Virus record (IMG/VR): IMGVR_UViG_3300030108_004864
Coordinates: 1-23,419 of that record
Direction: 5' to 3' (one strand)
Source of the DNA: a virus
DNA length: 23,419 nucleotides
The position numbers were made by a program, and so were the translations under genes. Position 1 is the first letter of the stretch; every line of letters begins with the position of its first letter. Below the pieces are notes generated by a model. The model searched no databases. It was not told the DNA's origin and saw nothing but the letters and a program-made list of their open reading frames with translations. Shown one piece after another: positions 2,202 to 19,062 of the stretch.

Positions 2202-4178
2202 TTATGGTCTTGGTTTAGAAAGCATTAATCCTTTAAATTCTGGCATATTAAATAAAGCATCTAAGTCTTCAATAGCTTTTCTTCTTCTTTGCAAACTACC
2301 ACCTGTTTTTATTTCTATTACTTTGCCATTTATAACAACAGGTTTAATACGATATCCATCTGGTCCTGTAAAACTTGTTTTATCTCCTTGATCTGCTAAT
2401 TGATAAAGCATTACACTTTCTCTAGTAAAATCTCCACCACCTCTTTCAAAACTAATACCTTCGCTTCTTCCCATTTGAGTAGTATAAAAAACATAACCTT
2501 TTGGATTAGACTTGTCTCTAATAGGTGGTAAAAACTGATTAATTTTATCAGCAACATTATTATCATCAAGATTCATTGTGTCAATATCAATGCTTGCTAT
2601 ATTTGTACTATAATCACCCTCTATCCTAGTTTCTCGAGATTTAGTTACGCCACCAAGCTCAATTCTTTCTTCAACTACAGTTTGTAAATTTCTAAATCTA
2701 GAATCATTAGTAAATTTTGCAGCTAAATTAGAGCCAGATCCAATAAACTGAACAGATTTAGGCGTGTCACCTTCTTCATAGTTTTCATACCATCCACTTA
2801 CACCATCAATAGTTTTATAAGAGTATTTATTTTGTTGTTTAGTTAATGGATCTACTTCTTCAAACTCAATACCATCTCTTATAGCGGTGTAAAGAGACTC
2901 AGCTGAACTACCTGTTATTATTTGCTTGTTGTGTAACATTACGCCTTTACCTTTAGAGTAAAAATCAAGATCAGTATCATCATCTTTAGTTCCAGATTTT
3001 TTATTTTTTTGTTTAGCTCCAAACTCATAAGCTTCTTCTGTTCTTTTTACTACAAAATCTGTAAATAATTTTTTAGCCATAGGGCCTTCACCTGTTAATA
3101 TTGAGTTTTGAAAAAGTACGTATTGATCGTTTATTTCTTGTTGACTTATACTACCATCTTTATTAGCGTCTAAATCTTCACTTAAAGCGTCTGCTTTAAT
3201 TTCTTTTTTTCCTGTTTCTTTATTAATAGTTGTGTTAGCAATATCTTCTAACATTAAAGTAAAATATTTTGAACTAAGCTCTGTTTGGTTAGGACCTGTT
3301 AATTCATCAAAAAAAGATGTACCTGAATGACCAAACTTAGAACGCATTGCTCTTCTTAATCCAGGAACATTTTTAGTTATATTATCTATAGAGGTTAATA
3401 ATTTACCTCTATTATATTTATCTAAAGTTCCACCATATGTAGCACCGTAAAGCTCTGCATTGTTAGTTATTGCGCTTAAAGTTGTACCCATAACATTGTC
3501 TACATCTTTAGCTGAATCTTTTATAAGCGTTTTAAAAGTAGATAAACTCATTGTTTTACCAGGTATTGCAGTCCCATCTTCTTTATGTAGCGTGTACATT
3601 AACTCGCCAGTTTTTGAGTCACGAGTAACTTTAGCTATATTTCCTTCGCTTGTAACTTTATTATTTGTATTACTAGCTATTATAGCGTTAACAAACTCAA
3701 CATCACCTCCCATTAAATCGTAATCTAACAAACCATTTTTAGAGGCTAAAGAAGCTTCTTCTAAAGATTCACCCCAACCATCTATTTCTGCAAATAGTTT
3801 ACTTCTTTTAGCAAGAAGTTGACTTCTTTTTCTTCTAGTTTCTCTATCACCAAACTTACCACCAAAACTACCAAGTGCTTTTAACTCGTCTTTTATATTG
3901 TAAAGTTCATCAACAAGCTCTTCAGTTCCACCAGCATCATATACTCTTTGTGCTTGATCAGAATATACTTCTGCATTTTTTTGTAACTCAGCACCTACTA
4001 GAGCTATAGTACCAGATATTTGACCCCAAGCTTCAGCTGCAGCTTCTTGAGATTTAGCATAACTATCAGCTACACTTTGAAATGTATCACTATAATCTTT
4101 TGGAGAAGTAGCTAAACCAGCTCTTGTTGCTGCTGTTACTATCGTTGAATCTGCCCCTTGTGTTAATTTTATTGCCAT
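2202..4178 (-). CDS. Presumed internal (cargo/ejection) virion protein with an EF-hand-like loop
   Basis: The 658-residue protein is not assignable to a named family. Residues 28-150 are mainly helical and charged (DTFQSVADSYAKSQEAAAEA; KNAEVYSDQAQRVYDAGG; RRKRSQLLAKRSKLFAEI). The middle is mixed helix and strand. A canonical 12-residue EF-hand loop, DANKDGSISQQE, occupies residues 337-348 (bases 3135-3170) with Asp1, Asn3, Asp5, Gly6, Ile8 and Glu12 all in place. The C-terminal third is beta-leaning (WYENYEEGDTPKSVQFIGSG; GYVFYTTQMGRSEGISFERG) and ends with a basic helix (SLQRRRKAIEDLDALFNMPE). Flanking genes look like ejection proteins, so I infer that it is packaged in the particle. The start MAIKLTQGADST follows TTGCC-free A/T sequence without a Shine-Dalgarno site. 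A tail-associated role is the alternative. Confidence 0.72.
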   Translation of the reverse strand: MAIKLTQGADSTIVTAATRAGLATSPKDYSDTFQSVADSYAKSQEAAAEAWGQISGTIALVGAELQKNAEVYSDQAQRVYDAGGTEELVDELYNIKDELKALGSFGGKFGDRETRRKRSQLLAKRSKLFAEIDGWGESLEEASLASKNGLLDYDLMGGDVEFVNAIIASNTNNKVTSEGNIAKVTRDSKTGELMYTLHKEDGTAIPGKTMSLSTFKTLIKDSAKDVDNVMGTTLSAITNNAELYGATYGGTLDKYNRGKLLTSIDNITKNVPGLRRAMRSKFGHSGTSFFDELTGPNQTELSSKYFTLMLEDIANTTINKETGKKEIKADALSEDLDANKDGSISQQEINDQYVLFQNSILTGEGPMAKKLFTDFVVKRTEEAYEFGAKQKNKKSGTKDDDTDLDFYSKGKGVMLHNKQIITGSSAESLYTAIRDGIEFEEVDPLTKQQNKYSYKTIDGVSGWYENYEEGDTPKSVQFIGSGSNLAAKFTNDSRFRNLQTVVEERIELGGVTKSRETRIEGDYSTNIASIDIDTMNLDDNNVADKINQFLPPIRDKSNPKGYVFYTTQMGRSEGISFERGGGDFTRESVMLYQLADQGDKTSFTGPDGYRIKPVVINGKVIEIKTGGSLQRRRKAIEDLDALFNMPEFKGLMLSKPRP

Positions 4179-4188
4179 ATTTTTTATT

Positions 4189-5007
4189 TTACTGTAACAT
4201 CATACCTAAACTACCACCACCTAAAGCCATACCAGCCGCACCTACTATAGAAGAAAACATTTGTGCACCTGCTGCTGCTTGCGCTCCATACATTTGTGAC
4301 TGCATACCTAAAGAAGACATTTGATTAGCCATAGCTTGTTGTTCAGCTTGATTAGCACCAGCTAATAAACCATAGTCAATACCTAATAACGTAGACTCTC
4401 TACCAAACTGAGCTTGTTGAACAGCTGCAGCACCTTGTTGTCTTAAAACGTCAGCTTTAAAACCTCCTTGCGCTCTTAAACGTTCAGCTGATACACCTAA
4501 AGCTCTAGCTCTTTCAGCACCAGCTAACTCCATTTGTTGAACTTGTTGAGCACCTCTTGCAGCTAATCTTTGATTCATAGCTTCTTGTTGACCTATATTA
4601 GCAGATATTTGTTGCGCTTGTACTGCACCTTGATTAGCTAACACTTGTGCTAAACTAGCTATACCAGTACTACCAGCAGCTTGTCTTAAATTAGAAAGTA
4701 TATTAGCTCTTTGTCTTTCACCTTGTTCAGCTTGAAACTCAGCTTGCCTCATATTAACTGTTAAGTCTTCATAAGGATTTTCTATACCTTCATATAAATT
4801 TTCAAACTCTGTTTTTAAATCTTCATACGGATTTTTAATATCAGCAAAAGGATTTTCAAACTGAAAACTTTTAAATTGTTCTTTTTGCTGATCTAATATA
4901 GCCTGTTGCTCTTCTTGTCTTCCTTGAAAATACTCAAATTGCTCTTGAGCCATTTGGTTCATTTCACGCATAGTTGCAGCTTGTCGTCTTCTTGCTCTTT
5001 TACCCAT
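4189..5007 (-). CDS. Presumed internal (ejection/cargo) virion protein with NPYEDL-type repeats
   Basis: The 272-residue protein begins with a basic end (MGKRARRRQ) and a Gln/Glu-rich helix (residues 12-48). Next is a short repeat region with four related units at 51, 58, 69 and 76: ENPFADI, KNPYEDL, ENLYEGI and ENPYEDL. Residues 85-240 are Ala/Gln-rich helix (GSTGIASLAQVLANQGAVQA; SANIGQQEAMNQRLAARGAQ), and the end (about 245-272) is Gly/Ala/Met-rich and hydrophobic (MFSSIVGAAGMALGGGSLGM). Long Ala/Gln helices with a membrane-compatible end match small ejection proteins such as T7 gp14 in style, though I cannot claim homology. I recall proteins with the same NPY repeats in marine podovirus-like contigs. 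It is followed 10 bases later by another presumed internal protein. It may line a trans-envelope DNA channel during injection. Confidence 0.72.
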   Translation of the reverse strand: MGKRARRRQAATMREMNQMAQEQFEYFQGRQEEQQAILDQQKEQFKSFQFENPFADIKNPYEDLKTEFENLYEGIENPYEDLTVNMRQAEFQAEQGERQRANILSNLRQAAGSTGIASLAQVLANQGAVQAQQISANIGQQEAMNQRLAARGAQQVQQMELAGAERARALGVSAERLRAQGGFKADVLRQQGAAAVQQAQFGRESTLLGIDYGLLAGANQAEQQAMANQMSSLGMQSQMYGAQAAAGAQMFSSIVGAAGMALGGGSLGMMLQ

Positions 5008-5008
5008 A

Positions 5009-5437
5009 TTATTGTTTGTTTATTAAATATTTAAAACCTTCGTATTTTACTGGTATCATAATCCAGTCTAAACTATCGTGTATGTTAGACATGTGAACAT
5101 CACCACATACTGTAAAAAGTTGCATAATACCGTATTTTTTAGCTTCTTTTTCTACTTTTTTTATTAATAGTTTAATTATATCTCTTCTATCTTTTTCTTT
5201 ATACTTTGGATTAGACACTAAATAAGTAGTCCAACCAACAGTTTTTGGTTCCATTATAAATAAAAAATAACAAGCTATAGGTATGTTATCTTTTTCTATA
5301 ACAAAACATCTTTCATCTTTCGGTAAAAACGCTCTAGGCACTGGACCTTGACCGTTTCTCCACCACCATTCCCACCACTCACAACACATTTCATAATCTC
5401 CTTGATGGAAAGATCTAACGTTTATATTATCATGCAT
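5009..5437 (-). CDS. GNAT-like (N-acetyltransferase fold) protein
   Basis: The 142-residue protein has the size and order of a GNAT domain: a beta start (INVRSFHQGDYEMCCEWWEW), a strand pair (CFVIEKDNIPIACYFLFIME), a core strand followed by a helix (VGWTTYLVSNPKYKEKDRRD; IIKLLIKKVEKEAKKYGI), a further strand (MQLFTVCGDVHM) and a final strand pair (WIMIPVKYEGFKYLINK). The Trp-rich helix WWEWWW (residues 21-26) is striking. The usual acetyl-CoA loop (R/Q-x-x-G-x-G/A) is not evident where expected after VSNP, so catalysis is doubtful. Small GNAT-like genes of this kind occur, to my memory, among structural genes of crAss-like and marine phages. The role could be modification of a virion or host protein, or a non-catalytic structural one. 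Its stop is one base from the next ATG, so it is coupled to the downstream ejection-protein gene. Confidence 0.7.
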   Translation of the reverse strand: MHDNINVRSFHQGDYEMCCEWWEWWWRNGQGPVPRAFLPKDERCFVIEKDNIPIACYFLFIMEPKTVGWTTYLVSNPKYKEKDRRDIIKLLIKKVEKEAKKYGIMQLFTVCGDVHMSNIHDSLDWIMIPVKYEGFKYLINKQ

Positions 5438-5481: not shown

Positions 5482-5817
5482 TTATTTACTACTAGGTGAT
5501 ATTTCAGAGCCTATAGCAAATAATTCAGCGTGTTTTAAAGAATTGTTTTTTAACTGTATTTCTGCATAATAACCTAATAAACTAGTGTTGTTAACTATTC
5601 TATTTTTTCTAAACATTAAAAAACTTCCTGCACTAGGTACTGATTGCTCATTGGCTATTGCAATAGTGTTTTCACTCATACCAGTTATTTCACCTACTAA
5701 CTGAGGATTAGAAGCTACCTGTTGGCTACCTACACCAGTAGTATTAGTGAAAAAAACTAAATCACCTATTTGTAAAGAAACGTTTGTTGTAGTATTTATT
5801 TCTATTATTATTGACAT
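5482..5817 (-). CDS. Small beta-barrel-like presumed virion protein
   Basis: The 111-residue protein reads as a small beta barrel: MSIIIEINTTTNVSL, then QIGDLVFFTNTTGVGSQQV, LVGEITGMSENTIAIANEQ, FLMFRKNRIVNN, GYYAEIQLKNNSLKHAELFA and a polar end (IGSEISPSSK). I recall similar short proteins in the structural regions of marine phage metagenomic contigs, without a known function. The ending GYYAEIQLKNNS followed by AELFAIGSE is the most distinctive part. Its IGD-V--F/V pattern resembles the inserted segment of the capsid protein in this window, so a decoration or vertex role is conceivable. It shares the operon with the beta-rich gene 11 bases upstream; 44 bases separate it from the GNAT-like gene downstream. 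Confidence 0.78.
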   Translation of the reverse strand: MSIIIEINTTTNVSLQIGDLVFFTNTTGVGSQQVASNPQLVGEITGMSENTIAIANEQSVPSAGSFLMFRKNRIVNNTSLLGYYAEIQLKNNSLKHAELFAIGSEISPSSK

Positions 5818-5828
5818 ATTTTATTGTT

Positions 5829-7169
5829 TTATGATGCTGCACCTACAGTAATAAAGTCATCTAAATTTAAGTTTATAGTTCTATTAGAAGAAGGATGTTT
5901 TAAAACAGCTACATCAGCTTCAATTACAACAATATTATCAGTATTGTTAAAATTTATTTCAGTACCTGCTAACACACCTGTTTGATCTAATTGAACTGTA
6001 ACACTTCCAGCAGTAGAAGAAGCACTAACAGACTGAACAGTGTTTGCTGCAGAGTTATTTACGTTTAAACCACTTATAGTAGCGTGACCTCCTCCCATAA
6101 CACCGTAAGTACCATTTAAATCTACTGTTGCATTAGTAGGACTTGTTCTAACCGTTTTTATAAATTTACCATTGTTAAACAGTCTTACATTAAAACTTTT
6201 AAAATCTAAGCTCATTTGTAAATCAGAGTTGTAACTAATAAACTTACCAAGAGCTCTTATTGTTAGTGTTATACCGTCAGCAAACTCTTGTATTGTAGAT
6301 ATTGTAATAGTATTAGTAACTTCATCTATACCTAAAATTTGAGGAGTACCCTCTAAACTACCACTACTAACACCTACTATATGCATACCTGTACTTATAT
6401 CTGTTAAGCTACTTAAAATAAACTCAGTACCAGTTGCACCTCCAGTTGTAACAGTTTTTTCAAAAAACCAAGAATTTGAAGTAAATACAGCTTGAGAATT
6501 ATTAGTTCCAGCTGTAGGGCTTGTAAGCCTAAGACCAAACCCATGACTATCATTTTCTACATTACGAACCATCCATCTAATTTTAACTATATTTGTAGTA
6601 GTATTTCCTGCTGCAGCTACAACTTCTGTTTTTGAAGCGTATAGTATTTCACCTCCTGGAGCAGAAGTACTAAAAGCTTGATAATTACTAGTGTTTGACG
6701 TTGACGGTGAAAAAGTTAAAGTAACATTAGAAGACTGATTTATGCTTCTTATATAAATATTTTGTCCATGAACACCAGCTGATTTATTAAAAGTTGTTTT
6801 TGAACTAGGCTCGGCATATGCTGTTATAATATATTGACCAGTGTAAGAACCTGGAAATTTTATAAAAGTACTAAATGTTTTACCTTTTAAAACAGCTTTT
6901 AAAGTTGTATTTTTATTAAAAGAACTTACAAAAGTATTTGTTGTAAAATCATAAAATTTATCAACAACACTCGCGGATTCAGATTTTTGAACAATATTAA
7001 TATTAAAAGAAGCACCTCTTTCTCCTTTTATTAAAAACCTTCTATTACTACCAGAAGATTGTATTTCAGAAGTATTTATTTCAAAACTATTTACTTTAAA
7101 ACTTTCAAAATCAGTTATAGTAGCGTTTTCATCTAAATTAATATTGTTGTGATATGAATTATGTGCCAT
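5829..7169 (-). CDS. Beta-rich presumed virion/tail protein, function unknown
   Basis: The 446-residue protein has no recognised family. It is rich in Asn, Ser and Thr with alternating hydrophobic strands throughout (RRFLIKGERGASFNINIVQK; STFIKFPGSYTGQYIITAYA; NIYIRSINQSSNVTLTFSP; GTPQILGIDEVTNTITIS; SVTVQLDQTGVLAGTEI). This pattern fits a chain of beta-sandwich domains such as occur in tail, fibre or capsid-decoration proteins. It has no signal peptide, membrane segment or catalytic motif. It lies 10 bases after the muzzle stop and 11 bases before the next small beta protein, so it probably belongs to the same tail-assembly operon. A tail-fibre, tail-hub or capsid-associated role are all possible. 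The start MAHNSYHNN is the first ATG after the upstream stop. Confidence 0.8.
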   Translation of the reverse strand: MAHNSYHNNINLDENATITDFESFKVNSFEINTSEIQSSGSNRRFLIKGERGASFNINIVQKSESASVVDKFYDFTTNTFVSSFNKNTTLKAVLKGKTFSTFIKFPGSYTGQYIITAYAEPSSKTTFNKSAGVHGQNIYIRSINQSSNVTLTFSPSTSNTSNYQAFSTSAPGGEILYASKTEVVAAAGNTTTNIVKIRWMVRNVENDSHGFGLRLTSPTAGTNNSQAVFTSNSWFFEKTVTTGGATGTEFILSSLTDISTGMHIVGVSSGSLEGTPQILGIDEVTNTITISTIQEFADGITLTIRALGKFISYNSDLQMSLDFKSFNVRLFNNGKFIKTVRTSPTNATVDLNGTYGVMGGGHATISGLNVNNSAANTVQSVSASSTAGSVTVQLDQTGVLAGTEINFNNTDNIVVIEADVAVLKHPSSNRTINLNLDDFITVGAAS

Positions 7170-7179
7170 GTTTTATATT

Positions 7180-10100
7180 TTAATTACTAGATGAATAACC
7201 ACTTCCAGATCCACTTGTAGATCCACTTCCAGATCCACTTCCAGATCCAGTTACAGAACTACTACTTGAAGATACATTACTAGGACCATATGTACTTGGG
7301 AATACAGCGGGACTTGATAGAAAATTAACTACTGAAGGAATAGTAGATACACTTACAACTTCACCTATACCTTGAAAACTAAACTCAGCTGTAGATAAAT
7401 CAGCGCTTGAACTACCTCTTATATAGTTAAACCATTTACCTTCTTTTTCAACAAACTCTTTAACAGTACCAACTTGATTATCTGTAATTATATAGTTTAC
7501 ATACCAACCAAGCTTAGAATATTTTTCATAATCAGTAGAAGCAGCTGGAAACTTTAAATAAGACTCACTTGACACTGAAACGTTATAAGGCTTTATAGTT
7601 TCGTCTATATAATTATCGTTATATTTATATATTTGAGACTGAGTACCTTCGTAATTTAAAGTATTAAAAGTTTTTATTAAAGAAGGATCTTGATTAAATA
7701 TCATTGTCACAGAAGACTCTGTTATATCTGTAATATTTTCACCATAAAATTGATTTCTATTTTCATTGGTGTGATGTTTAAACAATTTACCTTGATTTAA
7801 AGTGTAATATTGTTTTGCTAAACTTAAACCGTTTTCTGGTGTAAATGATTTAAAACTTATCCAACCTTTTGTTTTTTCACTAAAAGACAAAGTTGTTGGA
7901 TCAAACTCTATAACTTTTTGCATTGAAAAATTATCCAAAGTACCAGTAACATCTCCACTTGCGTCTATAAGCTCAACTACAAAAGTATTTTTTAATGGAT
8001 TTGTAATACCAGAACTAGCAGCTGTAGACTCACCAATTGAGTGTATTTGATTATAATAACCTGAAGAGTTAATTATTTCTGTTACAAAACCATTTCCTGC
8101 AGTATTAAAATAATAAACTCTTATTGCACCAGAAGTTATTTGATGATTAAATTTAATTTTATATTTTGAGTTATCTAAAACGTTTGTGTTTATTATTTGT
8201 CTTATTTCTGTAAAAGTAGGTGCGTTGTTTAATTCTATATTTTCATTTGCATCGTTAAAAAATATAAAATCATCATCTGTAGCATCGAAACCTACGAACT
8301 CCCAAAAATCAACAGAACCACCTGTTATTAAATTAGAAGCGTCAAATAATCTTATATTACGAAAATCACAACTTAAAGGTATAACAGGGTCAAAAGTAGG
8401 GTAATAATCTTTATTATGTATACGTAGCGTATTTTCATTATTTGTAGAAGTGTGAATAGTTATAGTTGGACTAGTATTTGGTGAATAAGTATTATTATCT
8501 TTTTCTATAGAAGATATATTTTCATTTCCTTCTTCAACATTAAAAGTTATTTTATAAACACCATTTTCGTTAATAATAAGTTTTAAATAATAACCTTCTG
8601 CATTTTGATTACCTTGAGCGTCAGGCATAAACAAAGGTGTTCTTAAACTTATATGAGCTTCACCACTAGTTAAATTTTCTATTGTAAATTCAAATTCATA
8701 ATTGTCTTGAGCAGGTAAAAAGTCAAAACTATTAGAAACATTGCTAAATTCTTGTTCAACTATATGACCTGGCGCTGAAGCGTTTCTAAATTTCAACCTA
8801 CCACTTTCTGCAAATAAACTTTTTCTATGTATACTATTAACTACTAGTAATTGATCGCTACCACCGTAATCAGGTAATTCCCAAGACGTAGTTGGGTTTG
8901 ATGTTTGCCATTGTCCAGTTCCAGAAAGACCAGAAGTATATGAAAATTCTGAAAGTTCACCACCTGTTTGTTTTTCAGATATATCTCTAACATTAATTAA
9001 ACGTATATTACCTTCAACATTATAAAACTGAACTTTAAAATCATCAGTAGCATTATCAACATTTGCGCTATTAGAATCTACTTTAACAACAGCTCTATAA
9101 AGTTTATAATTAGTATTAAGTATACTGTTGTCAAAATAACCAGCAGAGTCTATACCTACTAAATCATAGCCGTGCATATTATTATATTGTGGCCATTGTT
9201 CTGGATCTAACAAGCGAAAACCTCTATCTGTACCAACAGCTGGATTACCGGTACTATAAATATTAAAATTACCAAAACTACCATAAGGAATTGAACTAGC
9301 AAAGAAATTACTATTCCAATATGTTGACGCTGTGTCTGTGTAAACAGCTGGATCTATTAATCTTCTTACTAAAACCCCTTTATTATTAATGGTGTCTGTT
9401 CCTGAAAATTGGTCGATAACAACATCTACCATTAACCATTTGTCGGCTGTTTTTAAAGCAGTTAAATCTGAAGCACCATCAAATTGATTTGAGTTAAAAT
9501 GTATACCACTTGCATTTCCACTTACAGTACCTGTAGAAGTAGTGTTTATGTAAACAGCTTTAGAATTACCATAATCAATTGTAATTTGTTTAGGAGTTAT
9601 GCTACCATAATTTGAGTTAGGAGTTTGTATTATAGGAAGTGAAATTTCATTACCATCAGTAGCGTCATATTCATTATAAGAAGTGCTACCAAAAGAAATA
9701 TTTGCACCACTTATAGATGTTGGCTGTGCAAAAGTACCAGTACCAGATGGTAATGAAGTTGCGGGAACAGGCCAAGAAAAAGTCTGTGGATTTGCACCTA
9801 GTGTTGTAGCTGTGTCTGTAGAAGCTAAATGATCAGGTCCATGTACAGAAATACCATGTGAGCATAAAAGCTTACTAGCACCATACAGCACGTTAGCTCC
9901 AGAAATATTCCATTTATTTGGAAACTTTAGTTTATTTTCAACTGAAGCCCAAGCAGGTACTGTATAAGATGGTATAGGTAATTGCTGTTGTATAAATGGC
10001 TGACCAACAGTATATGGTTGTGTAAATTTAAAAACCTTTTCAACTTTAAAATTATCTAAATTAAAACCACCTTCGTTTGCTGATATAATTGGATAATAAC

Positions 10101-13100
10101 TTCCAACAGACATAGCAGGATTATCTATAGCAAATTTTAAAGTATCAAATATTTTACCTTCTTTAGCTGCAACAGCACCAGATGCGCCTTGACCAACAGT
10201 TAAACTTCCTGGATTTTTAAATTTAAAGAAGTATTCAAAAGTAAAAGTTCTAACATGACTTCCTCCTCCTCCTGAAGGAGCCCAACCGCCAACAGTTGAC
10301 CAAGCTGTACTATTCATATTTGAAGGTGGTAATAAAACCGTACCATCAGGTTGATATCCCATATTGCTCTGTACATAAGTATTACCAGATGGATCAGGAT
10401 TAATATTTGGATAAGTAAGAGAGCTCGGTGAATTACCAGGATCGTTTTGGTGTTTGGAAAATTTAACTCCTGATGCATTGTTAGGATTTTCCCAAGGACC
10501 GTTTGTTACAGAAACTAAGTTATCTGATGTAACCAAATTACCATCACCAAAAAGCCTTAACCTAGGGGTTGTTTTTGACGAGTCTAAAACTGTTAATGTT
10601 ATACTTACTTTAATTTCTTCTCCTGCAAAAATACTTAAATTATGTGCAGAACTATAATCTTCAGTTCCACTAGAAGAAAAGTGGTGGTTGTTAGATCCAG
10701 CATTAAGTGTAACATCGTGTTCTAATAAACCAGGCCCCCAAGTTGAAACTGCAGTAGGAACAAGATTATCTGGATAAACACCGGTTTGGTGTTTATGTGG
10801 TATCATGACAGAAGCTGTTTTATTATAACTTGATCCAAAATACATTTCATACCACTGCCACCCTAACGAGCCAAACATTCCAACAGGAGCACCACCTAAA
10901 CCTACAAAACCCACGTCTGTACCCGGATTACTTTGTGTTGGATTTGGACCACTTATATTTTTATAATATGGCTCACCATCATCAGCAGTAACATAATTAT
11001 TAAAAGTTGAAGGATGATTATTATCAACATCTCTTGATAAAATCCAACCACCTTGAGAATCTAAAGAACCAGGGTTTATGTCCTCAAAAGGACCTGTAGG
11101 AATACTAGTAGGAAGGTTAGTTGGAGAAGAGTTAGCCCATGTGTTGCTAGAATCCCAAATATCAGATACAGTAGTAGTAGAAGAAGAAGATATAGGAAAT
11201 GTACCATCTTCTGAAGGAAAAGTTAAGTCTATTATTGTATCTGAAGAAAGTTGAAAAACTGTATATTGAGCTATAGTTTCTGTTTGCGGAGACACTTGTT
11301 CTTGAAAATAACCTAAAGGTATTTCTGGATAATTTACAACAATAGTTTCTTGCGGAAAGTGACTATCGTTGTATGTCATCATGTTTTGAGCACTTGAAGT
11401 TTGATCCATTTCAGGAGTATTCAAATTAGTTGTATTTACAATCTCTCCATTTTGTATTAAGTTACTAGGCGTTGGATTTATGTTTACTAACTCTTCACCT
11501 TCTGAAATACCAGAATTTTTTAGTAAGTTTTCACTAAAATCTGATTTTAATGTTAAGTTATATTCTTTTTTATACTCATCATACGTACCAATTAGCTCAT
11601 TAGGAGTCATTATATTGTCTCTAAACCAATCAGTCATACCTATATCAGATATTGGTGTTAACCCGTCCATAGATAATCTTAAAACAGCTCCACGTTGTTT
11701 ATCAGTAAAATAAGCTCTATATGATTCTGAAGCAAACGATTCTGGGTTTTTAGATATACCATAATCACCTACAAATGGAGTTGCAGTACCTAAAACTCTA
11801 TTAGACGCTACAAGCTGTGGATTACCATCTGCATTAAACAAAGTATCTTTACCAGCAACTATATCTACTATTCTATCTTCACAAAAAGCAACTAAACCAA
11901 CTCTTCTTTGAAATAATTTTTGTATACTACCATAAGTAGGGTTTAAATCTTTAGTTATTTGTTCAGCAGTTATAAATTGATTTAAATTGTTTATACTACT
12001 ATTGGCATTATAAATACCAGAATATATTAAACCACTAGTTCTTTGCTCTTCTATATAATCATCGTCTATAGTTGAAGAAACAACAGGACCGTTTGTAATT
12101 TTCATTTCATTGAAACCATCCTGTATTCTATTAGATTCTAATCCGTTTCCAAATGAAAAACAATTGTACCAACTTAAACCTACTTGCAAGTCTTCACTAA
12201 CATCTGGATTAATAGTAAAAATATTTTTAAATCCATCAGCACCTCCATAGCCTAAAGAGTTATTTGGATCTGAAGTTTGAGCAGCTAATCTAGCTATAAC
12301 ATAACTACCGTCTTTTTTAGTAAATCTAATTTTATAATTAGAATAATCTATTTCAACTTTAGGAGTAGTACCTGGTACACTATACCTAAAACCTTTATCT
12401 AATTCAAAAGTTGTATCATCGATCCATCTTTTTAAAATACACTTTTGGTGTGTATAATCATTATTACTTAAATTTTCAGAAGCAAATGTATAAGCAGTTG
12501 TTTGCTCAATAGCATCAAAATCATTTTCACCTAATGTTTCTACAATACAACCAACTGGTGCTAATAGCTCATTAGTATTAGAATTTATTTTTATAGGTAT
12601 TGCATCAGTAGCTTCGTGATAAATTTCTGCATTAATAGACTGTTTAGCTTCTGTTTCCCAAATAATAGGTTTTTCAGCGTCTAACTCTATAAAGCTACTA
12701 GCTTGAGCTAAAAACTGAATACCACTACCTGTTACAACGTTTAAAGTACTTCCGTCAGAAGGATCATAAGTAGCATCTTTAGGATTTTTATCTAGCTCTA
12801 TTATATAACAAAGTCTTCTGTTATTAGCTTGGCCAAACCTATGTATTGCTTTTTTAAAATCTAAAAGGTCAGCAGCGTCACCATTTGGATTATTAGCGTC
12901 AATTGAATTTGCCCAACTTCTTCCTTCTTGAAAAACACTTAAACTACCAACTCCATCATAGTCATTACCATCATACAACCTTCTATTTCTCCAAGAGGTA
13001 TGATTGTATATTTTTTTTATAGTTACTTTTTTTATTGTGTATATAGTGTTGTTAGTGTCTGCTTCAAACTTAAATTTACTACCAGGCCTTATATTATTAA

Positions 13101-16100
13101 TAAATTCTTGTGTTTTACCATCTGGATCTGTTGGCCAACAAGGATTCCATTGGTTTTCGTGTCTAGCTCTATATTTTTCATCATAACCAAAAGAGTTTGG
13201 AACACCAGGACCTGGTGGCTCGCTACCATCATCATTATCATCAATAGGATATTTACCCTCCATAGGTATAATTATATCATCAATATTAGTAAAAGGTTCT
13301 CCGTTATGTGCGGTTATTACACCACCTCCCCAAATACCTTGTAAAAATCTACCTATACCTTGTTCACCATATATAGCGTTAGCATTATTAGGGCCACCAA
13401 TTTCATTAGTGTCAACTAAATCTTCACCAGGAGATAAAAAAGAAAGGTGCATAAAAAATTTACCTTCTTCTTTTCCATATGTATAATCTAAGCTGTTTTG
13501 TGTCTCATGCAAACCAGATCCAGTGCTATTTTCTGCTCTCCATCTTCTTATACCATCGCCTTGAAAAGTAAAATCACCAACATGGGTTGCGTCTGTTGTT
13601 ATTATACCTTCTAATCCATTTACTGAGTTATTTTTTATTGAAATAGTACCTGGTTCTTCTTCCCATTGCCTGTTAATATATTTCCACCCGTAAGTATAGC
13701 TAGTATTATATTGAACATTACTTTGCTCAGAATTTACAGTAATAACATCACCATCTGTATATCCTTGTGGTTCTATAGTTCTACCAACCCAAATTGGTAG
13801 TTTTGGATAATGAGCCATCGAACCTGCCCAAGTGGCACCAACTGTTTTAGCGTAGTTACTGTCTGATATTTGACCAGCTTTCATAAACATAGCGTCAATA
13901 AAAAATGCTCTACCTTCATCTTCCATTTCACCTATAACACCTGCCCAAGCGTTTTGAGTTCTAGTAGTATTAAGGTTTCCATTGTGTTCAAAAGGACTAT
14001 TATTAGTAGCAGTTGTGCTTACTTCATCAAAAGTTTGTGCATGTACTATACCAGAAACAGAGCTATCACCTGATGTTTGCACGTCATTAAGATAAAATGT
14101 TTTTTTACGAGCAAGCCATACAAATTTATCTAATAAAGATGTGTCATCTAATATATCTCCATAAACAATAGGTTGACTTAAAACTTTAACAAAAAACTTA
14201 CCAGATAATAATTCTGGTTTTCTTTCTTTTCTTTTTTCTAATCTAATACCTAAGTCTTGAAAACCACTAGTACCTTGACCACCACCAGAAATAACATCGT
14301 CTTTTTCAGATATAGGTTTTTCTAATTGTAATATATATTCAGGACCAGTGACTAATATATCTATAATTCTATATTTATCAGAACATAAACCAACATCGTC
14401 TCCATCAAATCTAAACCAAGACAAGTATAAGTCTTCAGGATAAGTTCCACCCACCGTTTTGTCATAAGCAGGTCTAAAATTAGTGTTAGCTAAAAAACTA
14501 GTTTTATCTAAAGAAACAGTAGTATTTCCTTTTTTAAGTAATTGACTTTCGTCTGTGGCATTAGCAGAAATATTAAAAAGATCATCTAAAAAATCAGTGC
14601 CACCTTCAGTAGCTTGAGTAAATTCAAATATTAAACCATACTCAAACTTTACAAAATCAGGGGCTTCATTTTTTATATCAAGTATTTTAAATTTATTTTT
14701 TTCTTGTATTTGAGTTTCACCACTACCTATTTTCTTTTTTAATATTAAGTAATCATCTTCACTTACTTTATTTCTTTCAGAAGAAGGAAAAGAAAGCCAC
14801 AAGTGCTGTTTGGTTTCTATTTCAGAAATATCTGCAGGTACATAAACCTTGTCCATTATTAAATTATAATAATCTCCAGAAGTTTCTTTTACAAAATATT
14901 TTATATATTCTGCAAAACTAGGAGGTTTAGACTGTAAAGTTACGTTTAATTGATATGACTGCGTTGAAGATAAATTACCATATTTACTTCTCCATGGTAT
15001 TAATACAGAGCCTTTATTAGATGTAAACACTGGTGTTTCTCTACCATATTTATCACCAAATACAATACCTATTTCGTAATTTCTTTGTGACTTTATAGAT
15101 GGTAATGCAGTAGAATTAAAATCATAAAAAGGTAAGTTATAAGATTTTCTAGAAACATAATCAGAGACAAATTTAGGAACTTTAGTATCTAAGTTATAAC
15201 CTTGAACATAATTACCATAAACTATTCTATTACCAGTTATTTCTTGAGCTAAAGCTTTTCTTGGTAAAGCATCCCAAGGTCTTAACAATTGATTTTCAGG
15301 AAGTGCGTTATTTAAGTGTTGAGAATTTATTATATATTTACCTCTAAACAAACCACCATAAACCGCAGGTTTGCCATTACCTGTTAAACCTCCTGGTAAA
15401 ATACTATTATTGTAACCAACGTTTTGTTGTTGTCCAGATCCATATTCGTACCACTCTCCATCTATTCTTTTTATACTAGCTATTGAGTGTATTGTTGGTG
15501 AGTCTTCTTTTTTATATAAAATATCAACTTGCTTTACATTTTCATCTGTGTCACTATTAATAAAGTCAGTTAACTCTACAGAATCAATTACGTTTAACAT
15601 TGATGTATTATAAGGTTCTTTTACATCATAAGCAACGTCTAAACTATATTTGTCTTTGTGTTCTGGATTAAAAACTATATCTGTAAAAGGAGCAAAAGTA
15701 GAATATTCGTTATCATTATATTTGTATCTATAAGAAAACCTAGGAAATATTCTTTCAAATAAAAGCTCTTTGTTTTTATTTTCTGTAGTATTTATTTTTA
15801 CACCAAGTTTTGTTTTAGGAGACTTTTTTATAGCAGTAATATTTTCTTCTTTTATATCTCTTGATATATTATTACCATATAAAACATCACCCACTTTAAA
15901 ATATCTATTTGCTTCAAAAAAAGTGCCAGGCGTATTAAAAGCAGTTAATCTAGCGTGCATACCATTTCCACTTCCGTTGTTCCATACTCTAACGTAAATT
16001 ACACCTAAAAACTCTCCGTCTCTATAATGTCTAAGAGGATTTATATTACCACTTTCAGAATTATCATCAGCATTTGGAGAGGCATGAACAACTTCATTTT

Positions 16101-16773
16101 CAAAAAGTTTGTCAAATTGATCTTTTTCAAAATAAAAATATCTACCTTCTTTTACTCTTGAATCATCAAGAGTGGTAACCATTTGCGCTAAGTTATTACC
16201 ATTATCATCTTGCTTTAAACCAACAGTATTAATAGTCAAACCGTCGAAGCTACCAAAATCATTAAACAACTTTGTATGTGTTTGTAAGTCTGTAGTACCT
16301 TTTTTACATTGGCTTATATTTATTTTTCTTGGCTCATTAACACCATCTGTAAAAAACAATAAACCATCTATTATGTTTATACCAGTAATTATTTTATCTG
16401 GAAACTTTAATACAGCTTCAGATGTATTTACTTTTGTATCTACTAAAACAGGTGTTACTCCAAACTCAACAGAATACTCTAATATAGCTTCAAAATTAAA
16501 ATAACCAGACTCACTTTTATATTCTCTTTTTACAAACCAATATAGATTATTATTTTTTTCATCTTCAATACAGCCAACACATTTACAATCTGAAGGAATT
16601 ATGTTTTCTACAGATAAATTACCTAATATATTTTGAACAGTACCAACATCAGAACCTTCAGATGTAGCTACCTGTATATTCATAGCATCTCTATACTCCC
16701 CTTGTGGAATAAGTCTTTCGTCAAGGTCTTTGTTCATACGACCTTTTAGAAAATTATTCTTAATTTCTGGCAT
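7180..16773 (-). CDS. Giant muzzle/stabilisation-type tail protein with large internal insertion
   Basis: The 3197-residue protein opens MPEIKNNFLKGRMNKDLDER and GEYRDAMNIQVATSEGSDVG, a start I recognise from the tail 'muzzle' or P22 gp10-like stabilisation proteins of crAss-like and marine podoviruses. It carries a CKCVGC cluster (Cys63, 65, 68). The first 1,750 residues include repeated beta segments and the characteristic block around FVGDYGISKNPESFASESYR, TDKQRGAVLRLSMDG and MTDWFRDN (about 1665-1720). A second typical block, KGWISFKSFTPENGLSLAKQ (Trp2971), with NRNQFYG and TFNTLNYEG, forms the C-terminal core. Between them (about 1750-2960) lies a beta-rich, Asn/Ser/Thr-rich insertion with several jelly-roll-like ends (LDNFKVEKV, FRNIRLFDAS, LDNFSMQKV). 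The last 36 residues are Ser/Gly repeats. It should form the distal short tail; the insertion is a candidate receptor-binding part. It lies 3 bases after the second ring gene. Confidence 0.8.
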   Translation of the reverse strand: MPEIKNNFLKGRMNKDLDERLIPQGEYRDAMNIQVATSEGSDVGTVQNILGNLSVENIIPSDCKCVGCIEDEKNNNLYWFVKREYKSESGYFNFEAILEYSVEFGVTPVLVDTKVNTSEAVLKFPDKIITGINIIDGLLFFTDGVNEPRKINISQCKKGTTDLQTHTKLFNDFGSFDGLTINTVGLKQDDNGNNLAQMVTTLDDSRVKEGRYFYFEKDQFDKLFENEVVHASPNADDNSESGNINPLRHYRDGEFLGVIYVRVWNNGSGNGMHARLTAFNTPGTFFEANRYFKVGDVLYGNNISRDIKEENITAIKKSPKTKLGVKINTTENKNKELLFERIFPRFSYRYKYNDNEYSTFAPFTDIVFNPEHKDKYSLDVAYDVKEPYNTSMLNVIDSVELTDFINSDTDENVKQVDILYKKEDSPTIHSIASIKRIDGEWYEYGSGQQQNVGYNNSILPGGLTGNGKPAVYGGLFRGKYIINSQHLNNALPENQLLRPWDALPRKALAQEITGNRIVYGNYVQGYNLDTKVPKFVSDYVSRKSYNLPFYDFNSTALPSIKSQRNYEIGIVFGDKYGRETPVFTSNKGSVLIPWRSKYGNLSSTQSYQLNVTLQSKPPSFAEYIKYFVKETSGDYYNLIMDKVYVPADISEIETKQHLWLSFPSSERNKVSEDDYLILKKKIGSGETQIQEKNKFKILDIKNEAPDFVKFEYGLIFEFTQATEGGTDFLDDLFNISANATDESQLLKKGNTTVSLDKTSFLANTNFRPAYDKTVGGTYPEDLYLSWFRFDGDDVGLCSDKYRIIDILVTGPEYILQLEKPISEKDDVISGGGQGTSGFQDLGIRLEKRKERKPELLSGKFFVKVLSQPIVYGDILDDTSLLDKFVWLARKKTFYLNDVQTSGDSSVSGIVHAQTFDEVSTTATNNSPFEHNGNLNTTRTQNAWAGVIGEMEDEGRAFFIDAMFMKAGQISDSNYAKTVGATWAGSMAHYPKLPIWVGRTIEPQGYTDGDVITVNSEQSNVQYNTSYTYGWKYINRQWEEEPGTISIKNNSVNGLEGIITTDATHVGDFTFQGDGIRRWRAENSTGSGLHETQNSLDYTYGKEEGKFFMHLSFLSPGEDLVDTNEIGGPNNANAIYGEQGIGRFLQGIWGGGVITAHNGEPFTNIDDIIIPMEGKYPIDDNDDGSEPPGPGVPNSFGYDEKYRARHENQWNPCWPTDPDGKTQEFINNIRPGSKFKFEADTNNTIYTIKKVTIKKIYNHTSWRNRRLYDGNDYDGVGSLSVFQEGRSWANSIDANNPNGDAADLLDFKKAIHRFGQANNRRLCYIIELDKNPKDATYDPSDGSTLNVVTGSGIQFLAQASSFIELDAEKPIIWETEAKQSINAEIYHEATDAIPIKINSNTNELLAPVGCIVETLGENDFDAIEQTTAYTFASENLSNNDYTHQKCILKRWIDDTTFELDKGFRYSVPGTTPKVEIDYSNYKIRFTKKDGSYVIARLAAQTSDPNNSLGYGGADGFKNIFTINPDVSEDLQVGLSWYNCFSFGNGLESNRIQDGFNEMKITNGPVVSSTIDDDYIEEQRTSGLIYSGIYNANSSINNLNQFITAEQITKDLNPTYGSIQKLFQRRVGLVAFCEDRIVDIVAGKDTLFNADGNPQLVASNRVLGTATPFVGDYGISKNPESFASESYRAYFTDKQRGAVLRLSMDGLTPISDIGMTDWFRDNIMTPNELIGTYDEYKKEYNLTLKSDFSENLLKNSGISEGEELVNINPTPSNLIQNGEIVNTTNLNTPEMDQTSSAQNMMTYNDSHFPQETIVVNYPEIPLGYFQEQVSPQTETIAQYTVFQLSSDTIIDLTFPSEDGTFPISSSSTTTVSDIWDSSNTWANSSPTNLPTSIPTGPFEDINPGSLDSQGGWILSRDVDNNHPSTFNNYVTADDGEPYYKNISGPNPTQSNPGTDVGFVGLGGAPVGMFGSLGWQWYEMYFGSSYNKTASVMIPHKHQTGVYPDNLVPTAVSTWGPGLLEHDVTLNAGSNNHHFSSSGTEDYSSAHNLSIFAGEEIKVSITLTVLDSSKTTPRLRLFGDGNLVTSDNLVSVTNGPWENPNNASGVKFSKHQNDPGNSPSSLTYPNINPDPSGNTYVQSNMGYQPDGTVLLPPSNMNSTAWSTVGGWAPSGGGGSHVRTFTFEYFFKFKNPGSLTVGQGASGAVAAKEGKIFDTLKFAIDNPAMSVGSYYPIISANEGGFNLDNFKVEKVFKFTQPYTVGQPFIQQQLPIPSYTVPAWASVENKLKFPNKWNISGANVLYGASKLLCSHGISVHGPDHLASTDTATTLGANPQTFSWPVPATSLPSGTGTFAQPTSISGANISFGSTSYNEYDATDGNEISLPIIQTPNSNYGSITPKQITIDYGNSKAVYINTTSTGTVSGNASGIHFNSNQFDGASDLTALKTADKWLMVDVVIDQFSGTDTINNKGVLVRRLIDPAVYTDTASTYWNSNFFASSIPYGSFGNFNIYSTGNPAVGTDRGFRLLDPEQWPQYNNMHGYDLVGIDSAGYFDNSILNTNYKLYRAVVKVDSNSANVDNATDDFKVQFYNVEGNIRLINVRDISEKQTGGELSEFSYTSGLSGTGQWQTSNPTTSWELPDYGGSDQLLVVNSIHRKSLFAESGRLKFRNASAPGHIVEQEFSNVSNSFDFLPAQDNYEFEFTIENLTSGEAHISLRTPLFMPDAQGNQNAEGYYLKLIINENGVYKITFNVEEGNENISSIEKDNNTYSPNTSPTITIHTSTNNENTLRIHNKDYYPTFDPVIPLSCDFRNIRLFDASNLITGGSVDFWEFVGFDATDDDFIFFNDANENIELNNAPTFTEIRQIINTNVLDNSKYKIKFNHQITSGAIRVYYFNTAGNGFVTEIINSSGYYNQIHSIGESTAASSGITNPLKNTFVVELIDASGDVTGTLDNFSMQKVIEFDPTTLSFSEKTKGWISFKSFTPENGLSLAKQYYTLNQGKLFKHHTNENRNQFYGENITDITESSVTMIFNQDPSLIKTFNTLNYEGTQSQIYKYNDNYIDETIKPYNVSVSSESYLKFPAASTDYEKYSKLGWYVNYIITDNQVGTVKEFVEKEGKWFNYIRGSSSADLSTAEFSFQGIGEVVSVSTIPSVVNFLSSPAVFPSTYGPSNVSSSSSSVTGSGSGSGSGSTSGSGSGYSSSN
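7201..7248 (-). repeat. Four tandem 12-bp units coding Gly-Ser repeats
   Basis: Four adjacent 12-base units occur at 7201, 7213, 7225 and 7237. Three are identical (acttccagatcc on the plus strand) and the second differs at two bases (acttgtagatcc). On the minus strand each unit encodes GSGS, or GSTS for the variant. The near identity at DNA level shows recent unit duplication rather than selection for Gly/Ser alone. The array sits in the extreme C-terminal tail of the giant muzzle protein. Confidence 0.9.
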
Positions 16774-16776
16774 ATA

Positions 16777-18363
16777 CTAATGTTTTATTTGCTTAGATTT
16801 ACCTCTAAGTATTCTAGTTAATTCTTCTAATTTTAAATTTGATAATCTTAGTTTAGCTTGTCTTATAGCAGCAAACTTTTCTTTTTTAAGTCTAGGTACT
16901 ATTTGCTGTGTGGCCATTTGACCAGCAGCTATAGCATGTAGTATATATCTATACATTGCTTCTTCTGCAAACTTATGCACTTGCATTTCTTCATCTGTAC
17001 CAAGACTATCGCTTATATAATCTAATATCACAGTTTTTCCTGAAATATTAGAACTAAAATGTATTCTACCTAATCTTTGATCTATATAAAAATTACCGTT
17101 TACTTGAGACTGTGCAGGTTCTAATCCATATCTTTCACCTTCAAAAGGCCAGTAAACTTGGTTTTCATAATTGTCATTATTATTTTCTGTAGGATCTATT
17201 GATTTATAATTTTTCCAAGTAGACGAACTTGTTTCATTACCAATTGGAGAACTAAGCTGCGTACTAGCAAAAGCATTTACAAGGCTTAAATTATCTATTG
17301 AATTTATATTTCCTGTACCTGTTACACTACCTTTAGGAGAAGCTGTTAAAGCTGCTGGCTTTAAAGCAAAACCATTTTCTAAAGGCGTTGTAGTTTCTAT
17401 AAAAGATAGAGCAATAACATAAACAGTGTCATGGTTAACAAGGTCTATAGCTTCTAAAGTTTTAGTACTAGTGTCATTACCAGTCCACTCTAAATAACCT
17501 ATATCAAAATAATCAGGGTCTAAAAATTGTGTTTGTGGAAATACAGTACCAGCTGGAGTAGAGTTATTTCCAGGATGCACATATGTATCGTGTGTGTTTA
17601 ACGTGTTAAAAACACTTGGATCTTGTGTTGTTAATCCAAGTCTAATAGTACCAACCGCTGTTCCAGTGTTAGTATTTACGTCTGTATTAGCAAAAGTTAT
17701 ATCACTAGTAACGCCATCAGCAGATAAATCAGCATAAGTTAAACTAGAAACATCTACTTGTTGATATAAAAGACCAACATGTCCCCAACCGGATTGTCCA
17801 AAACCGTTTTTGTTTACATACGACCACATTAACTTACCATCTGAAATACCTATTGTACTAGAAAAATTAGCACCAAAATTTTGCCCTTGTGCTATTTTGT
17901 TCCAGTTTTCAGGAATTTGCCCTAATAAATCTGTAAAACCAGGGTTAGCTAAAGTTTCTTCACCTGAAGGAAAAGAGTAGCTTAAGTCTTCTTCGTTTTG
18001 TTTTATTTGAAAAGGATTATTAGTATCTTTTATAGGATATAAAATATGTTTTATACCTGAAGAATCTACTGTAGATATTTTAGTATAGTTAACGTAGTCA
18101 TGAGGTATTGTCATTACTAAGCTAGGTGGTAACTCTATTTGTTGTGACTTTACAGATTTAAAAGTATCAAAGCTTAACTCTGCTAAAGCTCTTTGCGCAT
18201 GAAAAGAAACGTCTACTTGACTACATTTTTTAATAAGTTTTTCATCGCCAACATATACTGTTATAAACTGATCGATAATATCTTTTAATGATACAAATTG
18301 ATAACTACCAAAGTCGTTTCCTTGGTAATAATTTTGATGTGTTATGTTATCGTATAATCCCAT
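16777..18363 (-). CDS. Ring/adaptor-type connector protein 2 with an inserted jelly-roll-like domain
   Basis: The 528-residue protein has two conserved-looking halves. Residues 20-125 (VSLKDIIDQFITVYVGDEKL; VSFHAQRALAELSFDTFKS; IELPPSLVMTIPHDYVNYTK) and 377-528 (FYIDQRLGRIHFSSNISGKT; MQVHKFAEEAMYRYILHAIA; RQAKLRLSNLKLEELTRILR) resemble tail-tubular/ring connectors with a helical, basic C-terminus. Between them, residues about 138-366 look like a separate secreted-type beta domain: it opens LANPGFTDLLGQIPENWNK and closes SIDNLSLVNAF, the usual beginning and end of carbohydrate-binding jelly-roll modules. The gene starts 3 bases after the first ring gene's stop and ends 3 bases before the muzzle ATG, so the three connector genes appear translationally coupled. 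In the virion it should sit between portal and muzzle. The insertion could face outward and bind sugars or brace the capsid; that is inferred. Confidence 0.74.
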   Translation of the reverse strand: MGLYDNITHQNYYQGNDFGSYQFVSLKDIIDQFITVYVGDEKLIKKCSQVDVSFHAQRALAELSFDTFKSVKSQQIELPPSLVMTIPHDYVNYTKISTVDSSGIKHILYPIKDTNNPFQIKQNEEDLSYSFPSGEETLANPGFTDLLGQIPENWNKIAQGQNFGANFSSTIGISDGKLMWSYVNKNGFGQSGWGHVGLLYQQVDVSSLTYADLSADGVTSDITFANTDVNTNTGTAVGTIRLGLTTQDPSVFNTLNTHDTYVHPGNNSTPAGTVFPQTQFLDPDYFDIGYLEWTGNDTSTKTLEAIDLVNHDTVYVIALSFIETTTPLENGFALKPAALTASPKGSVTGTGNINSIDNLSLVNAFASTQLSSPIGNETSSSTWKNYKSIDPTENNNDNYENQVYWPFEGERYGLEPAQSQVNGNFYIDQRLGRIHFSSNISGKTVILDYISDSLGTDEEMQVHKFAEEAMYRYILHAIAAGQMATQQIVPRLKKEKFAAIRQAKLRLSNLKLEELTRILRGKSKQIKH

Positions 18364-18366
18364 TTA

Positions 18367-19062
18367 TTATATTTTTTCTTGTTGAATTTTTTTAACTTCT
18401 TCTTGAGCAGTAGCTTGAACTATATTATAATCTTTTATACCAACACCTGCTAACTGTAATATTTTTACTACTAAATTTTTTTGTTCAGAAACATGAAGTT
18501 CAAAATGATTAGCACCTGTTGAATTAAATAAAGGTTTTTCGTCAACAACAACATATTGCCAATTTGGCTTGCTAGGTGTTTTTATATAAGTAGCATTAGC
18601 TGAAGCTGAAGTTGAATTAGGAAACATTACTATAGAACCACCTGAAGATATACTATAGTTTGGAGACGTGAAAGTACCTTGAGTTAATCTAGCTCTATTT
18701 ACTCTAGAAAAATCTTCAGCATTTATTTCTTGCGCTTTGTATGCAGCGTTTTGATAAAGTAAAAAAACACCTGTTACTAAATAAGTGTCAGCTGGAAGTT
18801 GATAAGGAGCACTTGGTGAAAATTCAGGAGTTGTTTGTTTAAATTGAGATATTTTATAATTAATTAAGTCATCACTATTACTATATTCTTTATCAACACT
18901 AAAACGTCTTTTGTATTGGTTTAAATCAAAAAAATATTGATTAAAAATATCTAATTGAGCTTGACTAGCATATAAATTAAATTCTTGAGGTGTTATATAG
19001 CCTCTTTGTTCTTTGTTAGCTAAAGCTAATACTTTTTGATATACCTCATCTATATTTACCAT
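18367..19062 (-). CDS. Ring/adaptor-type head-to-tail connector protein 1
   Basis: The 231-residue protein starts with MVNIDEVYQKVLALANKEQR and YITPQEFNLYASQAQLDIFN, a helical opening I recognise from connector proteins of crAss-like and marine podoviruses. The middle is beta-rich (YQLPADTYLVTGVFLLYQNA; NYSISSGGSIVMFP) and the end is helical (VSEQKNLVVKILQLAGVGIK through QEEVKKIQQEKI). Helices flanking a beta sandwich match the general plan of portal-proximal adaptor/ring proteins, which form a dodecameric collar under the portal. Its stop is followed by a second in-frame TAA and then at once by the ATG of the second ring gene, indicating translational coupling. The upstream gap carries a UNCG hairpin. 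Role by family memory and position; P22 gp4-like or T7 gp11-like adaptors are functional analogues. Confidence 0.72.
   Translation of the reverse strand: MVNIDEVYQKVLALANKEQRGYITPQEFNLYASQAQLDIFNQYFFDLNQYKRRFSVDKEYSNSDDLINYKISQFKQTTPEFSPSAPYQLPADTYLVTGVFLLYQNAAYKAQEINAEDFSRVNRARLTQGTFTSPNYSISSGGSIVMFPNSTSASANATYIKTPSKPNWQYVVVDEKPLFNSTGANHFELHVSEQKNLVVKILQLAGVGIKDYNIVQATAQEEVKKIQQEKI

Follow-up and report, generated by a model that had tools for sequence, protein, structure and literature searches.

Why would the tail nozzle of a short-tailed phage carry some 1,200 extra residues, and do these residues touch the host? The question is raised by IMG/VR virus record IMGVR_UViG_3300030108_004864, of which we analysed bases 1–23,419 of 26,365 (the window); all main genes of the window, and every window feature given below by its coordinates, lie on the minus strand. 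A sequence-only reading of this DNA had placed an insertion of about 1,200 residues inside the muzzle (tail nozzle) protein and had proposed that receptor-binding modules are embedded there, so that a single chain supplies both the DNA exit and host recognition. The insertion is where that reading put it: residues 1750–2960 (1,211 amino acids (aa); 7894..11526) are a true extra segment at one exact site, well delimited on both sides. With moderate confidence we interpret this segment as an accessory cassette for adhesion, built into a hairpin on the surface of the muzzle β-propeller, with separate fibres making the main receptor contact.

The 3,197-aa open reading frame (ORF) at 7180..16773 is identified as a muzzle by several lines of evidence. 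It is homologous to gp97 of Cellulophaga phage phi38:1, matches PHROG 14478 (E 1e-126) and, at residues 3005–3120, matches the Pfam family crAss_MUZ_C (E 5.3e-6; 27.2 bits for a cut-off of 27). A search of PDB sequences with the core profile returned nothing credible, and mapping onto crAss001 gp44 required hhalign: a profile of 26 insertion-free relatives aligned with gp44 over 245 propeller-end columns (E 1.1e-7) and 135 N-terminal ring-joining columns (E 4.7e-5). Using domain names taken from this mapping (PMC10172136), the core before the insertion (residues 1–1749; 11527..16773; aligned with 8–13 homologues) comprises the ring-joining part, the IG/crass region and the propeller as far as the insertion hairpin, and the core after it (residues 2961–3120; 7414..7893) comprises the return of the hairpin and the next blade, found by profile hidden Markov model (HMM) anc2 in 77 relatives. 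The chain ends in a Ser/Gly-rich tail (7180..7269), and similar low-complexity tails occur in the relatives L002, L004, L006 and L041.

The boundaries of the insertion are marked by two conserved blocks, EYNLTLKSDFSEN (residues 1737–1749) and KGWISFKSFTPENG (residues 2969–2982). As the sequence-only reading had it, these are nearly adjacent in related muzzles: 3 residues separate them in phi38:1 gp97, 4 in Tenacibaculum phage Gundel_1, 12 in L007, L010 and L012, and 18 in the elemo phages, and the phi38:1 chain runs directly from '...KEYVMHEK' into 'TTAYSNLVTGYPSF'. Family profiles stop and resume at the same places, the PHROG 14478 match ending at residue 1746 and PHROG 18548 beginning at 2959. 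We measured the gap between the blocks by running HMMs of residues 1560–1743 and 2961–3060 against every ORF in about 100 loci. This sample of relatives is biased, because of at least 587 loci the best-scoring 80 were retained. Among 77 complete muzzle genes the gap is bimodal, with 2–41 residues in the 45 that lack the insertion, 583–1,442 residues in 29, and 122–150 residues in 3. Independent metagenomes (L002, L004, L006, L029 and others) share the insertion architecture, which is therefore not an assembly error. Asn, Ser and Thr make up 9.8, 10.8 and 9.1% of the insertion versus 8.2, 7.0 and 6.8% of the preceding segment, in agreement with the enrichment noted earlier, and tblastn of the insertion alone against 50,697 annotated phage records gave no match at E 0.1.

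Alignment with gp44 places the insertion at about residues 1197/1198 of the crAss001 protein, in the hairpin between '...DVYFTYK' and 'DHCLCYSE...', after IG2 (318–1021) and within the propeller as described for that structure (PMC10172136). By our own blade count this hairpin would belong to the sixth propeller blade. In phage SU10 the channel is lined by blades 4–6 (PMC9509320), and in T7 the tightest gate is made by a blade-6 loop (PMC6702177). Published length variation among muzzles lies in the crass and IG2 regions (PMC10172136), so the site described here differs from those known. As far as the literature we consulted on muzzles goes, both site and size are new for the family; in length the insertion approaches the entire crAss001 gp44 protein (1,371 aa).

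We predicted the structure of the insertion with AlphaFold2 in two overlapping pieces, A (residues 1739–2345) and B, from 31 and 28 aligned sequences. Confident β-sandwiches are predicted at about residues 2640–2811 and 2825–2954 in piece B. The first corresponds to module 3 (about residues 2640–2813; 8335..8856), a predicted jelly-roll closed by the strand FRNIRLFDAS (2804–2813), and the second to module 4 (about residues 2825–2954; 7912..8301), a predicted jelly-roll closed by LDNFSMQKV (2946–2954) in which the predicted local distance difference test (pLDDT) score is mostly 80–92. The two modules are homologous (hhalign 96.7%, E 5e-10). Foldseek comparison of piece B with the PDB yielded 61 matches with E-values no higher than 0.001, headed by Vip3 and GH101 proteins and including the tandem CBM22 structure 4xup (probability 1.00, E 1e-5) and an arabinanase; among viral models it matched CBM-cenC, F5/8C and tail proteins. 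GH101 and Vip3 proteins contain carbohydrate-binding-type domains. These predictions support modules 3 and 4 as two tandem jelly-rolls resembling carbohydrate-binding modules (CBMs) of the CBM4/9/22-like type. The N-terminal half of the insertion is β-rich and poorly predicted. Module 1 (about residues 1800–2250; 10024..11376) comprises one or more hypervariable β-rich domains ending in LDNFKVEKV (2239–2247), and module 2 (about residues 2251–2600; 8974..10023), modelled in piece B at low to moderate confidence, is β-rich and at the profile level resembles none of modules 1, 3 and 4. A search of PDB sequences with the insertion profile gave Rab5-type matches only, which were judged to be chance (E 0.13 or worse). 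The sequence-only reading had named the three motifs as closing strands of jelly-rolls, and its coordinates were right apart from a start of FRNIRLFDAS refined to 2804. All three do form the last strands of predicted β-domains (piece A 499–514 = 2237–2252; piece B 555–566 = 2800–2811 and 696–709 = 2941–2954) and two of these domains are jelly-rolls, but the fold of the third, in piece A, had no significant match. At least two independent jelly-roll domains with matches that include CBMs are thus predicted in a segment that might instead have folded as part of the nozzle.

The insertion changes much faster than the protein that carries it. Between the window and L002, identity is 92% in the block that precedes the insertion and 78% in the one that follows, versus 39% in the first part of the insertion (module 1), 51% in the middle and 63% in the last 160 residues, where module 4, the least variable part, adjoins re-entry into the propeller. 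Other pairs with diverged cores show the same pattern, and homologue alignment finds the segment absent from many relatives and hypervariable where present, rather than conserved in all. In the near-identical pair L033/L034 the nonsynonymous rate (dN) is 0.052 in the insertion versus 0.013 in the core (4 times), and the synonymous rate (dS) 0.139 versus 0.089 (1.6 times). The window–L002 pair gives dN of 0.50 versus 0.23 at similar, near-saturated dS. Variability of this kind would be expected of a surface in contact with the host. In L033/L034 the insertion dN/dS is 0.37 overall, and because this is below 1 its folding is kept.

Several observations weigh against an adhesion cassette and temper our confidence in it. 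Mean pLDDT was modest, at 60.5 for piece A, where module 1 is predicted with partial confidence and reaches 93 locally, and 62.4 for piece B. Foldseek template modelling (TM) scores were low, because multi-domain models were compared whole. For piece A no fold match reached significance (best E 0.028), and its weak matches were nearly all viral jelly-rolls. A Pfam scan of 33 insertions gave no accepted CBM or lectin family, the best being GalBD_like at E 0.009 in one member; a PHROG scan of the same insertions gave two single-member matches and nothing else. Relaxed constraint or recombination could likewise explain the rapid change, and one 150-residue stretch in L033/L034 has a dS of 0.43, which suggests recombination.

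How was the insertion gained and lost? In a core tree built with the insertion left out, all 30 long-insertion sequences, the window included, fall in one group of 31 (support 100/99). The only other member, L030, has a 9-residue linker at the site and, nested within the insertion clade, looks like a clean loss of the whole cassette, a loss that rests on a single assembly. The site is also used differently elsewhere. In Cellulophaga phage phi18:3 (gp114 and gp115) the muzzle extends for 499 residues from the same site with Big_9/cadherin-like domains, the remainder is a separate gene, and tandem mass spectrometry underlies the annotation of each piece as a virion protein. The chain is split into two genes at this hairpin in phi18:3 (L017 13846–13852), in the IMG/VR phage L088 (15316–15327) and in L124, a Flavobacterium caseinilyticum contig (12499–12527). 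It is conceivable, though we think it unlikely, that the propeller-blade hairpin serves generally as a place where adhesion domains are grafted and exchanged, with jelly-roll cassettes here, cadherin/Ig-like domains in phi18:3 and chain breaks elsewhere; this would set host recognition on a blade that gates the DNA channel, and binding could then pull directly on the gate. C-terminal extensions of 585–1,289 aa are frequent in muzzles with little or no insertion (L007, L009–L011, L013, L060, L073, L081, L085, L087 and L096), that of L010 having weak BACON-like similarity (E 0.008). Relocation of the insertion modules to these extensions was not borne out (no profile similarity in the five tested), nor was their relocation to separate genes nearby, with no match in other ORFs of the fetched loci of insertion-free relatives or in the L030 record.

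Does the insertion replace the tail fibres? The single-chain proposal rested on there being no separate fibre gene, and neither the 23.4-kb window nor the 26.4-kb record contains one. That record, however, is a fragment that begins inside the open gene 2–2191 and ends before the corresponding fibre region, so the argument from a missing fibre gene reflects where the contig ends. Insertion-bearing relatives encode Peptidase_S74 and Laminin_G_3 proteins. In L051 (insertion 991 aa; 65.9-kb record G008, gene order as in the window), the genes beyond the cargo gene homologous to 2–2191 encode, among others, a fibre-like protein (932 aa), a tail-fibre protein with Peptidase_S74 (446 aa; Pfam E 1e-9; PHROG tail fiber E 1.5e-26) and a lectin protein with Laminin_G_3 (307 aa; E 3e-20). 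Besides G008, the insertion-bearing records G005, G007 and G011 contain fibre or lectin genes. Relatives of the 932-aa protein occur in the L044 and L034 records; LamG proteins are encoded in the L044 and L027 records, the latter of which also has an S74 protein. We disregarded a weak Peptidase_S74 match in the L006 record (E 5.6e-5, short of the cut-off), since its position is that of the orthologue of gene 4189–5007, an internal-type virion protein. That the insertion is the sole adhesin cannot be concluded, and the relatives argue against it. Because many relatives lack the insertion, and close relatives that have it also have separate fibre genes, an additional device for host contact is a likelier reading than a fibre replacement.

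Three other explanations were weighed against this evidence. Hypervariable jelly-rolls at a tail tip and the fibreless record would suit a phage whose principal receptor-binding protein is the insertion itself, but we consider this distinctly improbable given the truncated record, the separate fibre or lectin genes of insertion-bearing L051, L044, L034 and L027, and the case of L030 (record G001), which lacks the insertion, keeps its muzzle and encodes a 1,153-aa triple Laminin_G_3 protein elsewhere. The insertion might instead dock or scaffold the tail fibres or a neighbouring protein and vary with its partner. Precedents are the jelly-roll fibre dock of T7 gp12 (PMC6702177) and the SU10 dock loop that extends a propeller blade (PMC9509320), and a candidate partner is the adjacent 446-aa β-rich protein (5829..7169), which is equally variable at 39% identity to its L002 orthologue. 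A length of 1,000–1,400 residues far exceeds the T7 and SU10 docks, CBM-like domains are atypical of docks, and the insertion changes most slowly at the end adjoining the propeller junction; docking therefore seems to us improbable. More improbable still is a decoration without specific ligand, providing virion stability or loose stickiness and diverging under relaxed constraint. Loss in L030 and absence from many relatives, with no evident replacement beside the muzzle, would be expected of such a decoration, but an open frame of 583–1,442 aa with conserved structural motifs is kept in 30 of 31 complete clade members, and the dN/dS of the insertion is below 1.

If residues 1750–2960 are an accessory adhesion cassette, they would project from the tail tip, in six copies if the muzzle, like that of crAss001, is a hexamer. 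The first 40 or so insertion residues, together with module 4, would form a conserved base at the propeller, and hypervariable modules 1 and 2 the outer, host-contacting part. On a flavobacterial host the ligand of the cassette may be the capsule or a surface polysaccharide, and binding could raise adsorption, orient the nozzle or assist gate triggering, while separate fibre proteins encoded off the contig would give the main receptor contact; exposure, glycan binding and a role in infection are what we infer for the insertion. A marine flavobacterium is the likely host, because the cultured relatives infect Cellulophaga, Flavobacterium and Tenacibaculum (one relative is named as a Maribacter phage) and the majority of matches in bacterial assemblies are in Bacteroidota. 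A single substitution in the nozzle protein TTPB (tail tubular protein B) of an Acinetobacter phage alters host range (PMC10904470).

In function, the cassette would be a podovirus counterpart of the siphophage 'evolved Dit' (evoDit), in which CBM domains are likewise inserted in a structural tail-tip protein of some relatives and missing from others, and in which a CBM insertion in the Dit of skunaviruses promotes adsorption (PMC10688798). The Dit ring scaffold is unrelated, its phages are siphophages of Gram-positive hosts, and its function was tested experimentally whereas that of the window insertion is deduced; the scaffold here is the muzzle of a podovirus-type module, and the likeness is one of mode of action only. 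Among nozzles, crAss001 gp44 belongs to the same family by propeller-end alignment and crAss_MUZ_C. Muzzles are known to differ in length through insertions, but those described are in the IG2/crass regions rather than a propeller-blade hairpin (PMC10172136). The muzzles of phi38:1, elemo and Gundel_1 share the homologous core and flanking blocks, but have 3–18 residues between the blocks and a C-terminal domain that is still fused. Phi18:3 adds its 499 residues at the site used in the window, but they are Big_9/cadherin-like and the chain breaks there rather than continuing. T7 gp12 and the SU10 nozzle are seven-bladed propellers that bear extra domains on blades or where blades meet, but at other points and with much smaller domains (PMC6702177, PMC9509320).

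The surrounding genes carry further signs of remodelling. A 111-aa protein encoded separately (5482..5817) is the muzzle's C-terminal domain in detached form; its profile matches the C-terminal ends of intact muzzles (phi38:1, elemo, Gundel_1, L086, L093, L097 and L100; E 2e-12 to 3e-26); PHROG 18548 covers both proteins. The 446-aa protein lies between it and the muzzle, has no Pfam or significant PHROG match and evolves as fast as the insertion (39% identity to L002, versus 79–86% for genes 2202–5437). A second inserted domain occupies residues 125–400 (about 275 residues; 17164..17991) of the ring protein (16777–18363; PHROG 13977). This domain is absent in phi38:1 gp96; the site spans 27–47 aa there and in others, spans 136–491 aa in many relatives, and is filled in a wider set of relatives than the muzzle site. 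A common family for the two inserts was rejected, as there is no profile similarity. The ring-protein inserted domain of L006 is shorter and of a different type, starting 'ELIKNGNF' and ending 'VVIDDISIVRV'.

The gene order of the window, matched in phi38:1 and IMG/VR relatives, continues upstream with a gene matching PHROG 14543 (18367–19062), a gene at 19120–19974, the major capsid gene (20044–21522; PHROG 13704 and gene order) and, by gene order, a scaffold-like gene (21543–22742) and the C-terminal end of a probable portal gene (from 22770). Downstream, a small GNAT-like acetyltransferase gene among the structural genes (5009–5437; Pfam E 0.0015, just under cut-off) is 93% identical to that of L029 and among the most conserved. 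Internal or cargo-type proteins follow down to base 2. The last, 2–2191, has a zinc-peptidase-like motif, NHELLHG, at residue 577, common to six relatives (L055, L059, L062, L065, L072 and L081).

The insertion bears on how crAss-like and related short-tailed phages recognise Bacteroidota, and on what triggers the muzzle gate to open. Adhesion domains inserted in tail-tip proteins are known already, and the muzzle insertion adds a variant without establishing a fibreless phage. Insertion-free relatives and the one within-clade loss, L030, provide natural comparators at hand. Large, hypervariable and equipped with CBM-like domains, the cassette occupies a set place in the nozzle and is a concrete candidate for host-surface contact beyond the fibres.

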